Virus record (IMG/VR): IMGVR_UViG_3300032116_000928
Location: 1-30,485 of that record
Length of the DNA: 30,485 bases
Origin: a virus
Reading direction: 5' to 3' (one strand)
The notes beneath the pieces are model-generated. The model was not told the DNA's origin. It did not search any database and saw only the letters and a program-made list of their open reading frames with translations. This document shows positions 1-30,356 of the stretch, in pieces. The position numbers and the translations under genes are program-made. Every line of letters begins with the position of its first letter. Position 1 is the first letter of the stretch.

Positions 1-437
1 CATTGAGTATCTTTCACGGCCACGAATTTGGTAAGCAATTTATGCCATCAGTAAATGTTGCACGTGGACTTTTCTTAAAGACAAAAGCGAATGCGATGTG
101 TGGTCACCATCACCAAACTGCTGAACACACGGAGCGTGATGTAAATGGAAAGGTGATAACGTGTTGGGGTGTCGCTTGCCTTTCCGAGTTGAGTCCAGAT
201 TACAACCCCTATTCAAAATACAACCACGGATTTGCCATAATAACAAGAGGGAATGGAAAAGATTTTCACGTTAAGAACTATCGTATTCATCAAGGTCGCA
301 TCTATTAGTATCGGTATTGCTATTGGTATTTTATTATGCAGACCTGCACCCAGTCGGTTACAAATTGTAACCACTTCAGATACCATCACCGCATATTTGC
401 GGACAATAGACACGCTAACCATTGAACGCATTAAATT
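1..437. repeat. left copy of the 437-base terminal near-repeat
   Basis: Bases 1-437 match 30049-30485 without gaps. I count 21 mismatches by eye (about 95% identity). Within the phosphoesterase frame almost all differences are silent; the only residue change is Tyr to Phe. This pattern is natural strain divergence under selection rather than sequencing error. It suggests a circular or permuted genome of about 30,048 bases whose two ends came from different strain variants. Confidence 0.95.
3..308 (+). CDS. metallophosphoesterase, C-terminal fragment cut by the window edge
   Basis: This is the last third of the metallophosphoesterase that is complete at 29358-30356, here in the left copy of the terminal repeat. 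The reading frame is open through the window edge, so the apparent TTG start is not a real start. It retains the late metal-binding motifs of the calcineurin-like fold: FHGHEF near the beginning, then CGHHHQ. It differs from the complete copy by a single residue (YSKYNHG here, YSKFNHG there). It ends in the residues GRIY, and the next gene begins inside it at 253. Confidence 0.85.
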   Translation: MSIFHGHEFGKQFMPSVNVARGLFLKTKANAMCGHHHQTAEHTERDVNGKVITCWGVACLSELSPDYNPYSKYNHGFAIITRGNGKDFHVKNYRIHQGRIY

Positions 438-2135: not shown

Positions 2136-2825
2136 TTAAAATAATTTTGTTTGAATACTTGTAATATAACTCGCATCATATCTTTTATTTTCTCCTTTTG
2201 GATATGGTTTAATATCAAATAATTTTGCTTTCATAATTTCCTTTTTTAATCGCTTATCTGATAATATCATAACGTATCTGTATTTAGGTTCTCTACGCAC
2301 TTGGTACAATAAATCACCATATTTCTCTTTTAGCTTTTCAATCCTATTTTCTTCAAAAGCAAATTCATCCATTAAGGTTCTTGAATGAATATGTTCTTTA
2401 CCTTTCAATTTCCAATCCAATTGTATGTGACTTTCACCAGTAAACATAAAGTTTGTTGCTTGGTAAATGTAACCATTATGACCTACTGATTTATCTGCAT
2501 AACTTACAATAATAATTGGTTTCGGTAACATTTTAAAGGATTGGGATATAAAAAATGAATTAGCGTTCTTATCTATGTTATCATTTGTACAAAGTCGATT
2601 TAACTCATAAACCAAATCCATATACTTTTCACCAAACAAAGATTTTTTCATTGTCAATGGTATTGCGTTTCCAAAAGTTATTACACCTACTAATAAACTA
2701 TCGCAGTACAAACCAAAAGAATAAGTGAATGATGTTTTACGCTTCAAATAATGCTTCTTTAAAAGCCACTCGGCACATTCATAAGATTGAATTGGTTTCA
2801 CGCTATACTTTTCAGTAATGCTCAT
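2136..2825 (-). CDS. mom: Mom-like adenine hypermodification protein
   Basis: This encodes 229 residues, close to the length of phage Mu Mom. Family-type blocks are ELNRLC (residues 74-79) with ANSFFISQSFKML shortly after, then YADKSVGHNGYIYQATNF (109-126). These match the GNAT-like Mom family, which attaches a small group to N6 of adenine in phage DNA and so blocks many restriction enzymes. The start overlaps the stop of a 50-residue upstream gene (ATGA). It shares the operon with a cytosine methyltransferase, which fits a DNA-protection role. Mu Mom needs host Dam and Com for expression; no Com homologue is evident here. The modification chemistry is inferred from the family. Confidence 0.8.
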   Translation of the reverse strand: MSITEKYSVKPIQSYECAEWLLKKHYLKRKTSFTYSFGLYCDSLLVGVITFGNAIPLTMKKSLFGEKYMDLVYELNRLCTNDNIDKNANSFFISQSFKMLPKPIIIVSYADKSVGHNGYIYQATNFMFTGESHIQLDWKLKGKEHIHSRTLMDEFAFEENRIEKLKEKYGDLLYQVRREPKYRYVMILSDKRLKKEIMKAKLFDIKPYPKGENKRYDASYITSIQTKLF

Positions 2826-3013: not shown

Positions 3014-4306
3014 CTATGCGAATGCATATTTCCCGAAATTCTTTTTTAATTCGTAGAATGCCCTCATCATTATTGCGTCTGCAAAGTCAGGAGAAAGGCC
3101 GTGCCTCTTTTTCAAATCTTCTTTATTTGTCACTCTCAATTTCCCATCACTATCCATCTTTTCACGTCTTATCATCTCCAGTTCTTTGACAATGGTGTCT
3201 TTATGCGTTGATTCAAATGTTATGAGGTTGTTGGTAATCAATTCGCCAAGCTTGAAATAGCAATCACTTTTGAGATTCATATAATTATCTCGCACTGCTT
3301 TTGATCCATTAAGAAATCCTTTGCATTTAAGATAATCAACTGCACCACCACCAATGCCATCCTCATCGCATAGTACATTGGATAACTTTATTCCGTGACT
3401 TTTCACCAACTGGTTAATGGTATCAACTACCTCGTTAATTGGTTTGTGTTTCAATACCACAAATGTTTCAGCGTGTAGACCATTCCACACAACTATCACA
3501 GTTCTATCATCTCCCATACGTGCAATATCCGCAGTTATGAATTTATCACTTGATGAATTTGCAGGTGTGCGGAAACATCTTAACAAGTCATCGTATTCAT
3601 AAAGTCTATCTTTCGTTTCATCATAATCCCAATCACCTTCCAAAAGTCTTTTGCGGTCTACTTCAGGCAGTAATAAAAGAGATTCAAGATACACTGGAGA
3701 TACGTGGGGATTGTCAGTTGGTAAAGCTTGGATAAATTCCCTATCTGAACGAATTAACCCACTACGTTTAGCATCAAAGAATTCACGATATAACCATCCT
3801 TTGTGAGGATTGCAAGTGAGCAGTCCTTTGGGTTTGTCATTTATTAGCTTGTATCTCACACGTGAGGCCAAGATATTAACGCATTTTTCAGAAACTTCAC
3901 CTGCCTCGTCTACAAAGTAATCAGTTAACTCAATTGACCCGAACCTTTGAAACTCGGGATCCGATGGAGTATCAGCCAAGTCCATTAGTATCGTTTGACT
4001 TCCATTGAACCAAGTTATTACGTGGTCTTGTCCGTTGTAATTGTAGTGTTTACCTGCGATAAGATTGTGATGAGCGCACAATTCAAAGAATGTTTGCATC
4101 GTTGATAGGCGCAACTTCTTTAATTCAGCACGGCCAATGAGGCCTCGGGTACCTGGGTATTTTAACCTCCTTTTTATTTGCCAATCGCATCCGAGGAATG
4201 ACTTACCGCCTGATGCAGCTCCTCCATATAAGACTTGACGAATATCGCAATTTTTGGAGAGCGCATCAAGTGCCTGCAATTGCTTTGCGTTGTATTCAAT
4301 TTTCAT
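3014..4306 (-). CDS. terL: terminase large subunit (packaging ATPase and nuclease)
   Basis: This encodes 430 residues, normal for TerL. The ATPase domain has a Walker A-type loop GGAASGGKS (28-36), Walker B FVDEAGE (131-137) and a coupling motif LLTCNP (162-167). The RNase-H-like nuclease domain has FITADIARMGDD (Asp260), LCDEDG (Asp314/316) and SPDFADA (Asp410). It packages phage DNA into the prohead at the portal and cuts it. It overlaps the methyltransferase stop by 11 bases. Unusually, it lies in the leftward replication/modification operon, while the probable small subunit (11241-11531) and the portal are on the other strand, several kilobases away. Confidence 0.95.
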   Translation of the reverse strand: MKIEYNAKQLQALDALSKNCDIRQVLYGGAASGGKSFLGCDWQIKRRLKYPGTRGLIGRAELKKLRLSTMQTFFELCAHHNLIAGKHYNYNGQDHVITWFNGSQTILMDLADTPSDPEFQRFGSIELTDYFVDEAGEVSEKCVNILASRVRYKLINDKPKGLLTCNPHKGWLYREFFDAKRSGLIRSDREFIQALPTDNPHVSPVYLESLLLLPEVDRKRLLEGDWDYDETKDRLYEYDDLLRCFRTPANSSSDKFITADIARMGDDRTVIVVWNGLHAETFVVLKHKPINEVVDTINQLVKSHGIKLSNVLCDEDGIGGGAVDYLKCKGFLNGSKAVRDNYMNLKSDCYFKLGELITNNLITFESTHKDTIVKELEMIRREKMDSDGKLRVTNKEDLKKRHGLSPDFADAIMMRAFYELKKNFGKYAFA

Positions 4307-5324
4307 CCATCATTTGTATTACGTTAAAAATCTGATATGCAACTTGTGGAACTATCGCATTTCCATATCCTTTGATTGATTCTTGCCTCCACTTTGAAAA
4401 GGTAATTCCGTCCAGTTTGGTGGGAAGCCCATCATCTCCGCTACAAATCGGGGATTGAGTTGGGAAGTTGTCCCAGTTGGGTTTAAATGCACCGCCATTT
4501 GTCTTAATTGATAATGAAGATTCACACCTTTTTTCATTTGAATTTCCTTTCGTTGTTGATACTTGCTTGGTTCTTGCTCGGTATTCCAATCGAATGAATT
4601 TGGTGTTGGTAGCATTCCAAATTTCATCATCGTTGTTAAATCGTCTATCTTTCCATCGCGAATTCGTTGATGGCTGTTTCCGTGTCCTTTCACTCTCGGA
4701 GTTGGAAGTAATCTCGCAACATCGTTTAATTTTGCACCAAACTGAATATTTGTTGTGTCCGATGTTCTTATAAATCTCCCATTTTGCAAACTGATTTGAT
4801 CTATTCTTTTTGGACTTCCTTCGATATCTGCTACGCAAGGAGTGGGCAACAAACCAAACTCTGTCTCTTCGGTGTGGCGCACCAACGGCACAAGCTGGAA
4901 GTATAAACGGAATGACTTCATACCCTTCATTTTCCAATTCAGCGCACACTTCTTCGAAGACCAATCCCCCATTCCAATTAGTAATTCCACGAACATTCTC
5001 CCCCACAACGTATGTCGGTTGAATCTCTTGAATTGCTCGGAGCATATGCGGCCAGAGGTGTCGCTCGTCCTCTTTCCCAAGTCGCTTTCCTGCTGATGAA
5101 TATGGTTGGCAGGGGAATCCACCTGTGAGTATGTCAATTGCTCCTCTGTGAATAGTGAAATCTGTTTTTGTGATATCTTCATAACTAATTGAATTTGGAA
5201 AATGATAATGTAAAACTTGTCTTGGAAATGGCATCCATTCGCAATGAAATATATTTTCCCATCCCATCCATTCAGCAGCTAAATCAAAGCCACCAATTCC
5301 GCTGAACAAACTACCGTGCCTCAT
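4296..5324 (-). CDS. dcm: DNA (cytosine-5) methyltransferase
   Basis: This encodes 342 residues. C5-methyltransferase motifs in order are: I, LFSGIGGFDLA (6-16); IV, GGFPCQPYSSAG (68-79, catalytic Cys72); VI, ENVRG (109-113); VIII, GAPHRRDRVWFVA (148-160); X, GYGNAIVPQVAYQIF (319-333). The stretch from about 165 to 280 is where target recognition is expected. Here it is rich in Ser, Asn, Arg and Lys and looks unlike a normal compact domain, because another gene is overprinted on it. It would methylate cytosine in phage DNA to evade restriction. It starts in an ATGA overlap with the upstream gene and ends 11 bases inside terL. The target sequence cannot be read from the protein. Confidence 0.92.
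   Translation of the reverse strand: MRHGSLFSGIGGFDLAAEWMGWENIFHCEWMPFPRQVLHYHFPNSISYEDITKTDFTIHRGAIDILTGGFPCQPYSSAGKRLGKEDERHLWPHMLRAIQEIQPTYVVGENVRGITNWNGGLVFEEVCAELENEGYEVIPFILPACAVGAPHRRDRVWFVAHSLRSRYRRKSKKNRSNQFAKWEIYKNIGHNKYSVWCKIKRCCEITSNSESERTRKQPSTNSRWKDRRFNNDDEIWNATNTKFIRLEYRARTKQVSTTKGNSNEKRCESSLSIKTNGGAFKPNWDNFPTQSPICSGDDGLPTKLDGITFSKWRQESIKGYGNAIVPQVAYQIFNVIQMMDEN
4352..5182 (-). CDS. LPTP-repeat protein overprinted on the cytosine methyltransferase gene
   Basis: An uninterrupted 276-codon frame lies wholly inside the methyltransferase gene on the same strand, in the +1 frame. Its product is not random. It has a fairly even composition, three LPTP motifs (112-115, 159-162, 191-194), and a C-terminal block LNPRFVAEMMGFPPNWT (242-258). 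I recognise these blocks from phage proteins often found next to or overlapping Dcm genes, sometimes annotated as methyltransferase C-terminal or hypothetical. The Asn-Ala-Thr-Asn-Thr type segments of Dcm are the same bases as the LPTP motifs. The role is unknown; a target-recognition or partner subunit of the methyltransferase is a plausible guess. Expression is not shown. Confidence 0.6.
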   Translation of the reverse strand: MKISQKQISLFTEEQLTYSQVDSPANHIHQQESDLGKRTSDTSGRICSEQFKRFNRHTLWGRMFVELLIGMGDWSSKKCALNWKMKGMKSFRLYFQLVPLVRHTEETEFGLLPTPCVADIEGSPKRIDQISLQNGRFIRTSDTTNIQFGAKLNDVARLLPTPRVKGHGNSHQRIRDGKIDDLTTMMKFGMLPTPNSFDWNTEQEPSKYQQRKEIQMKKGVNLHYQLRQMAVHLNPTGTTSQLNPRFVAEMMGFPPNWTELPFQSGGKNQSKDMEMR

Positions 5325-29357: not shown

Positions 29358-30356
29358 ATGGCAGCTGAAAGTCAAAAGACAAAAATCGCAAGAGAATTGC
29401 GTGAGCGTTTTCCTGATACACCAACTTTAACATTGGCGAAGAAACTATCTAAAGAACATTTCGAAACATTCTTGGGAGTAGAAGATGCACGTGGTGTACT
29501 GCGTAGAATTGAAGGAAAAAATGGAGCAAGGAATAGAAAAAATTTGACTGATAAATCATTGGTTAAAAGTGAAGATAGACCTAAAAATCCTTTCAAGTTA
29601 CCGAAGTCGTATGCCAAAGGTAGGAGGCACATTGACATCAAAGGAAAAAAGATTTTAATCTTATCCGATATTCACATTCCATACCACGATGTTCAGGCTT
29701 TGAATGTTGCAATCCAAAGTGGAATAGATGAGAATGTTGATACGGTTATATTAAATGGTGATGCACTTGACTGCCATCAATTATCTGATTTCGTTAAGGA
29801 TCCAAAGAAGCGCAAATTCAAAGAAGAATTGTATGCGATGCGCACTTTCATTTCTGAATTAAGGCAAACATTCCCGAAAGCGGAAATCATTTATAAGGAA
29901 GGAAACCACGAAGAACGCTATTGGAGATTTATGAGGGTCAAAGCTCCAGAGTTGGTTGATATTGATGCCTTTGATTTTTCCTCTCTTTGCCATCTTGATA
30001 AACATAACGTGAAATGGATTGAAGGAAAGAACAAGTTAAATGTAGGTGCATTGAGTATCTTTCACGGCCACGAATTTGGTAAGCAATTTATGCCATCAGT
30101 AAATGTTGCACGTGGACTTTTCTTAAAGACAAAAGCGAATGCGATGTGTGGTCACCATCACCAAACTGCTGAACATACTGAAAGAGATGTTAACGGCAAA
30201 GTGATAACGTGTTGGGGTGTCGCTTGCCTTTCCGAGTTAAGTCCAGATTATAACCCCTATTCAAAATTCAATCACGGATTTGCCATAATAACAAGAGGTA
30301 ATGGAAAAGATTTTCACGTTAAGAACTATCGTATTCATCAAGGTCGCATCTATTAG
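29358..30356 (+). CDS. calcineurin-like metallophosphoesterase
   Basis: This encodes 332 residues. Motifs in order are ILSDIHIPYH (Asp104, His106), NGDALDCHQ (Asp135), EGNHEERYWR (Asn183, His184), FHGHEF (His236/238) and CGHHHQ (His266/268), a complete two-metal site. The N-terminal 60 residues look like a helix-turn-helix (TPTLTLAKKLSKEHFETFLG). Such phage enzymes are annotated phosphoesterase or DNA-repair exonuclease; substrate is unknown. It follows the endolysin by six bases, and the spanin-like gene starts inside its end. Confidence 0.9.
   Translation: MAAESQKTKIARELRERFPDTPTLTLAKKLSKEHFETFLGVEDARGVLRRIEGKNGARNRKNLTDKSLVKSEDRPKNPFKLPKSYAKGRRHIDIKGKKILILSDIHIPYHDVQALNVAIQSGIDENVDTVILNGDALDCHQLSDFVKDPKKRKFKEELYAMRTFISELRQTFPKAEIIYKEGNHEERYWRFMRVKAPELVDIDAFDFSSLCHLDKHNVKWIEGKNKLNVGALSIFHGHEFGKQFMPSVNVARGLFLKTKANAMCGHHHQTAEHTERDVNGKVITCWGVACLSELSPDYNPYSKFNHGFAIITRGNGKDFHVKNYRIHQGRIY

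Follow-up and report, generated by a model that had tools for sequence, protein, structure and literature searches.

In the 30,485-nucleotide viral DNA IMGVR_UViG_3300032116_000928 (IMG/VR; positions 1 to 30,485, hereafter the window), a gene for a Dcm-like C5-cytosine methyltransferase of 342 amino acids (4296..5324, minus strand) contains, nested in its +1 frame, a second open reading frame (ORF) of 276 amino acids (4352..5182, minus strand). Comparison with relatives reveals that the selected frame switches from frame 0 to +1 between methyltransferase motifs VIII and IX and returns to frame 0 at motif X. From the distribution of motifs and substitutions, we consider it highly probable that the two ORFs encode a two-polypeptide C5-methyltransferase whose small domain, holding the target recognition domain (TRD) and motif IX, would be nested in the +1 frame. 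The preliminary description of this DNA reported two ORFs overlapping on one strand, with Dcm motifs in frame 0 and three LPTP motifs plus LNPRFVAEMMGFPPNWT in the +1 frame; its coordinates, lengths, +1 relation and motif positions are all correct.

The Dcm product, the proposed catalytic (alpha) polypeptide, carries motifs I, IV (GGFPCQP), VI (ENV), VIII (GAPHRRDRVWF) and X (GNAIVP) in frame 0. Motifs I-VIII fall within residues 1-162 (4839..5324; this and all following coordinates for parts of the two ORFs are on the minus strand), which are predicted to form most of the large domain. Motif IV (5103..5123) includes the catalytic Cys72, and G69, P71, C72 and Q73 are among the motif residues of this chain that are invariant in 79 aligned relatives. 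Residues 163-306 (4407..4838) form a frame-0 linker, or passenger, between VIII and X that has neither a TRD nor a motif IX, and the motif X region follows at residues 311-341 (ESIKGYGNAIVPQVAYQIF; 4302..4394). The +1 product, proposed to be the target-recognition and motif IX (beta) polypeptide, comprises a segment over motifs VI-VIII (LWGRMFVELLIGMGDWSSKKCALNWKMKGMKSFRLYFQLVPLVRHTEETEFG; 4850..5008), LLPTP at 4852 and 4711, MLPTP at 4615, and the motif IX box LNPRFVAEMMGFPPNWT at 4459-4409. The start of FVAEMMGFP in +1 lies 83 nt from the start of GNAIVP in frame 0.

Selection on the two reading frames

The two-frame substitution analysis that the preliminary description had proposed was run on 145 loci aligned by Dcm codons, from which 53 disjoint pairs were drawn. 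Isolated differences between paired loci were sorted by their effect in each frame (S, synonymous; N, nonsynonymous; Dcm frame first, +1 frame second), and ranges were obtained by bootstrap over pairs. These 145 loci were pre-filtered for a +1 ORF of >150 codons, while the counts out of 80 given below are unfiltered. Outside the overlap, at Dcm 4-44, the nonsynonymous-to-synonymous ratio (dN/dS) of Dcm is 0.03 and no clear constraint is seen in +1 (NN/NS 0.56, range 0.32-1.01). Constraint acts on both frames across motifs IV-VIII (Dcm 50-158), with a Dcm ratio of 0.04, a +1 NN/NS of 0.19 (0.13-0.27) and an SN/SS of 0.33 (0.26-0.43). Within this region, +1 constraint peaks from codon 106 onward (NN/NS 0.05-0.20 across Dcm residues 106-165), and L81 and W83 of the +1 protein are invariant among relatives.

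Over Dcm 160-283, substitutions in the Dcm frame are close to neutral (NN/SN 0.66, 0.47-0.95; NS/SS 1.37), whereas strong purifying selection acts on +1 (NN/NS 0.14, 0.11-0.19). The motif IX box (4409..4459) is the most constrained +1 segment (NN/NS 0.06, SN/SS 0.05), and from Dcm 307, at motif X, constraint on frame 0 is strong again (0.04). Transitions alone give the same two-frame picture, and the +2 frame, used as a control, shows no NN/NS constraint. When codons are shuffled with the +1 protein held fixed, frame 0 remains open through 160-283 in an average of ~2.5% of shuffles per locus; because it is so rarely left open, frame 0 is evidently being kept open there, presumably to reach motif X.

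Recurrence of the nested arrangement

In the window alone, a +1 open stretch of equal length arises in 0.08% of 20,000 synonymous-codon shuffles that preserve the Dcm protein and its codon usage, and in one filtered set of 39 loci selected by Dcm, 1 of 7,800 shuffles matches the +1 open length. The +1 open frame thus exceeds chance. A search with the Dcm protein alone fetched 80 viral loci, and 80/80 of them have no +1 stop between the catalytic PCQ and the end of motif IX, encode X in frame 0 and carry an LNPxFVxxMMGFP box in +1. Conversely, when the +1 family was used to search bacterial and archaeal genomes, 80 loci were retrieved, mainly from Bacteroidota with a few from Bacillota and single Burkholderiaceae and Dehalococcoidales records, and 77/80 have an unbroken frame-0 ORF from the motif IV codons through those of motif IX. 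The Dcm-selected loci and most of the genome loci thus selected by their LPTP protein share the layout of a small ORF inside a large one in +1. Among the 145 loci, +1 stops are confined to Dcm codons 1-55, one at codon 78, and codons at or beyond 307, rather than being strewn through the LPTP frame, the outcome that the preliminary description had named as speaking against it; its suggestion that such pairs recur in phages is borne out.

The same arrangement, recognised by a motif IX box or an LPTP/WPTP region in +1, was found in GenBank records of Paenibacillus, Lacticaseibacillus, Klebsiella, Escherichia, Xanthomonas, Rhodobacter, Stenotrophomonas and Mycobacterium (Zerg) phages, as well as in a Klebsiella plasmid record, with motifs I-VIII and, where recognisable, X in frame 0. 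In Lactococcus phage D7138, whose Dcm is of the ordinary single-chain kind, the enzyme's own RKLTPRECWRLQGFP is read in frame 0 and many stops interrupt +1. A survey by phylum with PHROG_1008, the family matched by the +1 ORF, detected the family in 17/299 Pseudomonadota, 4/249 Bacillota and 2/247 Bacteroidota, rates that are likely lower bounds since the profile diverges from many members; some of the survey loci could be parsed by regular expression, and every motif IX found in these lies in +1. The nested arrangement is present in phages and prophages of several bacterial phyla, and annotation usually overlooks it.

Several relatives depart from the intact layout. In 20 IMG/VR contigs (L249-L268), and also in L086, L108 and L109, TAACTA stands between the Pro and Cys codons of GGFPCQP, giving an in-frame TAA, which in these contigs is a normal stop codon, followed by CTA. 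Most of them have an intact Dcm before the insertion and an open one from there to X, and their +1 ORF is uninterrupted; the insertion is old, as DNA identity of the N-terminal part falls to 0.65. L207 (MT835926, 1500-4000) has an intein-like insertion at GGFP^CQP of the overlapping Dcm, and its +1 protein would start near the end of the insertion or later because the +1 ORF reopens only there. Finally, L111 (2749-4060) has a TAG in motif I and a TAA at FPT(Q)SP, with the Dcm frame otherwise intact and the +1 ORF open.

LPTP cassettes and the proposed two-chain enzyme

Between VIII and IX, the +1 protein consists of one to five units in series, each of ~39 residues and beginning with LPTP. The three cassettes parsed in the window begin LLPTPCVADIEG (4712..4852), LLPTPRVKGHGN (4616..4711) and MLPTPNSFDWNTEQEP (4463..4615), the last of which is one of 45 units, from 44 loci, that make up the second-largest family. 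Across the 145 loci, 393 units fall into 108 families and 125 arrangements, and each cassette must remain open in both frames. We compared 25 disjoint pairs in which Dcm 1-158 is near-identical (93-99% DNA identity), with 82-100% identity in the IX-X box. In 12 of the 25, identity of the cassette region is at most 0.53, barely above that of random pairs (0.47), although this value is normalised to the longer sequence and so overstates differences where cassette numbers differ. The clearest replacement is seen between L076 and L101, whose flanks are 98.9% and 99% identical and whose cassettes are 44% identical. A replaced middle between conserved flanks is what the exchange of target-recognition modules would be expected to leave, and we infer that each LPTP cassette is one TRD that sets specificity.

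The Dcm protein matches Pfam PF00145 DNA_methylase (3.5e-46), PHROG_363 (1.1e-74) and M.HhaI in the PDB (3e-18). Its AlphaFold model has a confident large domain at residues 1-162, with a predicted local distance difference test (pLDDT) score >80 in most ten-residue blocks, and two confident helices at motif X (residues 311-341, pLDDT 81-96); the best matches of the model with Foldseek in the PDB are to M.HhaI (1e-14). Nearly all of residues 186-306 score <50 and are almost without secondary structure. The model thus depicts the Dcm product as an M.HhaI-like large domain made of motifs I-VIII plus X, and the disorder predicted for 186-306 leaves it without a small domain. That domain in M.HhaI and M.HaeIII comprises motif IX and the variable recognition region (PMC3404938), both of which, judged by motif, the +1 protein carries. 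The +1 ORF matches PHROG_1008, annotated only as 'DNA methyltransferase', at 1.1e-27, and neither the protein nor its profile had significant matches in Pfam, NCBIfam or the PDB sequences. We also considered whether the +1 protein is a hidden copy of Dcm sequence and rejected this, because its profile and that of the Dcm family aligned, spuriously, over just 8 residues.

Phages in which the two parts are joined or divided differently help to place the LPTP region within the enzyme. Mycobacteriophage Babsiella encodes motifs I-VIII, several LPTP units, IX and X as a single 615-residue chain, gp54, and more LPTP units are found in +1 as the annotated gp55; in mycobacteriophage Skipitt, I-VIII are on gp78, and LPTP units, IX and X are on gp77, the product of a separate downstream gene read in +1 with a 26-base overlap. 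PHROG_1008 matches gp54 (1.9e-81) and gp77 (6e-80), PHROG_116, a single-chain family, matches gp77 (6e-9), and the profile of the window family finds gp77 at an E of 4e-11; the PHROG_1008 and PHROG_116 matches to gp54 and gp77 assign the LPTP part to the enzyme's C-terminal half. Similarly, phiBT1 (L218, 1786-2900) has I-VIII in gp9.1 and LPTP, IX and X in an unannotated downstream +1 ORF, so that gp9.1, annotated as 'DNA methylase may be inactive', may belong to an enzyme that is complete after all. Mycobacterium phage A1SD1 (L213) and Arthrobacter phage 1191A (L209) have LPTP units in +1 and keep both IX and X in frame 0, a third way of distributing these parts, indicating that the frame boundary differs between lineages. 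In L117 (1649-2450), a G run shifts the N-terminal part of Dcm into the LPTP frame, placing early motifs, LPTP and IX in one chain, which is either an assembly error or a real fusion.

On the two-polypeptide reading, frame 0 would make the large catalytic domain, consisting of motifs I-VIII, an unconstrained linker of ~120 residues and motif X, and the +1 frame, from an internal start near Dcm codons 48-63, would make a second protein composed of an N-terminal segment over VI-VIII, one to five LPTP target-recognition cassettes and motif IX, equivalent to the M.HhaI small domain. The alpha and beta chains would associate, with alpha binding S-adenosylmethionine and performing the chemistry and beta reading the DNA sequence; replacement of cassettes would then alter the methylated sites and let the phage keep pace with host restriction enzymes. 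We infer, from computation, translation of beta, binding between the chains, DNA recognition by the cassettes, which would set specificity, methylation and an anti-restriction role. Shielding of phage DNA from restriction is the probable role given that the gene adjoins that for the large terminase (3014-4306) and that the phage also encodes a Mom-family DNA-modification protein nearby (2136-2825, minus strand; PF25680, 1.4e-38). Two candidate starts for beta are an ATG at Dcm codon 48 (5180..5182), common to 94/145 relatives, and a TTG at codon 63 (5135-5137), preceded by AGAGGAG and common to 96/145. Internal initiation is plausible, and Shine-Dalgarno-like sequences precede the internal ATG in some Bacillota relatives (L203, aggagagagtttttATG; L119, gggaggtgttagaacaagATG).

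Several observations count against this proposal. The TL motif of C5-methyltransferase TRDs, P(STCA)PT(ILV) (consensus taken from PMC2413257), occurs in 38 of the 393 cassettes under a strict definition and in 85 under a loose one, although a P-T-P core is present in 316. AlphaFold models the +1 protein poorly (pLDDT 60, predicted template modelling score 0.25), and the model has no meaningful match in the PDB. The profile of the +1 motif IX lands exactly on motif IX of an ordinary single-chain Dcm (KLTPRECWRLQGFP), but at a non-significant E of 0.42. Moderate constraint persists on frame 0 within the IX box (Dcm 0.29; 0.25-0.29 over residues 284-306). Lastly, the +1 start codon is not uniform: in 13 loci a stop interrupts +1 between Dcm codons 49 and 78, which requires a start further downstream.

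Three other explanations were weighed. The first is that the +1 open frame is a passive consequence of the codon usage and amino-acid composition of Dcm; in its favour, the order of Dcm residues by itself makes long +1 stretches more likely than in random sequence, with synonymous shuffles averaging 95 open codons. The substitution patterns refute this and make it exceedingly improbable, however: Dcm-synonymous changes that alter +1 are depleted in all three overlap regions (SN/SS 0.33, 0.30 and 0.05), Dcm is the near-neutral frame between VIII and IX, and +1 is open in all 80 relatives. Judging by the constraint profile, we regard as very unlikely a programmed +1 ribosomal frameshift after VIII that would fuse I-VIII to LPTP-IX, leaving the frame-0 product as the unshifted form. 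The Babsiella chain shows that I-VIII-LPTP-IX-X is viable as one polypeptide, and the variable +1 start codon is also consistent with a shift. Yet a frameshift gene should have coding constraint in +1 only 3' of the shift, whereas Dcm 106-158, which precedes any shift that would retain VI-VIII, already shows +1 constraint; moreover, frame 0 stays open through the near-neutral region until strong constraint returns at motif X, which the fused chain would lack unless a second shift occurred.

It is likewise very unlikely that the +1 ORF, merely happening to overlap Dcm, encodes a genuine protein in its own right whose role has nothing to do with target recognition, such as a regulator or anti-restriction factor. 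The +1 protein has no recognisable fold, and its N-terminal segment overlapping VI-VIII is not known to have a counterpart in ordinary C5-methyltransferases. On the other side, the +1 ORF carries the motif IX box that frame 0, itself without a small domain, lacks; LPTP-IX and the catalytic domain share one chain in Babsiella and are direct neighbours in Skipitt; and swapping of cassettes between conserved flanks is the behaviour of a recognition region. The preliminary description had offered a choice between one gene overprinted on another and a target-recognition part located in the second frame. Both are supported: the +1 ORF is a selected, nested gene that carries IX and LPTP, its frame-0 counterpart is near-neutral and predicted to be disordered, and in mycobacteriophages LPTP-IX is joined to the catalytic domain or is its separate partner. 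It had also left open a split or a frameshifted enzyme; the frameshift is disfavoured by +1 constraint over VI-VIII and by a frame 0 that is open to X.

Relation to known systems and features of the window

By description, the nearest known enzyme is M.EcoHK31I (YGGCCR), in which a small ORF is nested inside a large ORF in another reading frame. As in the window, its large polypeptide has I-VIII plus X and its smaller second polypeptide has motif IX (PMC3404938), and it has been described as a naturally split methyltransferase (PMC3439449). In contrast to the window, where +1 holds IX together with the LPTP array and frame 0 is near-neutral between VIII and X, the TRD of M.EcoHK31I is in its large subunit and only IX is in the small one (PMC3404938); M.EcoHK31I also belongs to a restriction-modification system, whereas the window gene is a phage gene. 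M.AquI, with I-VIII on alpha and IX-X on beta (PMC3404938), likewise consists of two polypeptides split between VIII and the distal recognition part, as does the Skipitt gp78/gp77 pair. Unlike in M.AquI, motif X of the window stays on the catalytic chain (frame 0, strongly constrained) and the second ORF is nested rather than downstream.

The recognition domains of the Bacillus subtilis phage SPR and phi3T methyltransferases are of a module size similar to that of the LPTP cassettes. These multispecific C5-methyltransferases have serial, exchangeable TRDs (Trautner and colleagues, cited in PMC2413257), which the LPTP cassettes, as putative recognition modules in series within a variable region, would resemble; they are, however, single chains read in one frame, while the window cassettes are open in two frames and would be on another polypeptide. 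The ShiLan element is also a second ORF hidden out of frame in a phage methylase gene, but it is a mobile homing-endonuclease (HNH) insertion (PMC11855218), whereas the window +1 ORF appears to be an old and constant part of the enzyme.

PHROG_363 and PHROG_1008, which match the two window proteins, are both labelled only 'DNA methyltransferase' in PHROGs, and no description of their overlap, division of labour or cassettes was found in the literature searched. Both ORFs are annotated in Paenibacillus larvae phages (BLOOM_56 and the nested BLOOM_57), and passages of the paper on these phages list two cytosine methyltransferases without remarking on the nesting. The same literature held no account of the breadth of this architecture, its frame-switching selection, the assignment of the recognition region to +1 or the shuffling of cassettes. 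The view of the preliminary description that such pairs are poorly described appears right for the Dcm/LPTP family, although it did not name the precedent of M.EcoHK31I. Relative to known split C5-methyltransferases, breadth, the dual-frame selection profile and cassette shuffling appear to be new.

We think it reasonably likely that these loci represent a widespread and old class in phages and prophages, in which a specificity subunit is overprinted in the catalytic gene and cassettes of ~40 residues, each readable in both frames, are swapped, each adding or changing one methylated site; specificity would then evolve through the exchange of +1 modules, with frame 0 there serving only as an open, near-neutral linker. 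If true, many phage 'Dcm' annotations cover half an enzyme, the half that apparently chooses the target being absent from most gene lists or placed in an unnamed PHROG, and predicting protected sites or building methylation tools would require the +1 frame. The locus would also be an unusually clear natural case of two frames selected simultaneously, with the functional frame passing from 0 to +1 and back to 0 and with modules being exchanged rapidly in the overlap. With such arrays, cassette number and identity can be compared directly with the number and sequence of 5-methylcytosine motifs.

At the ends of the window, the ORF at 3-308 (plus strand) resembles the end of the metallophosphoesterase ORF at 29358-30356 (plus strand), with nearly identical translations, pointing to a circularly permuted assembly or an imperfect terminal repeat.

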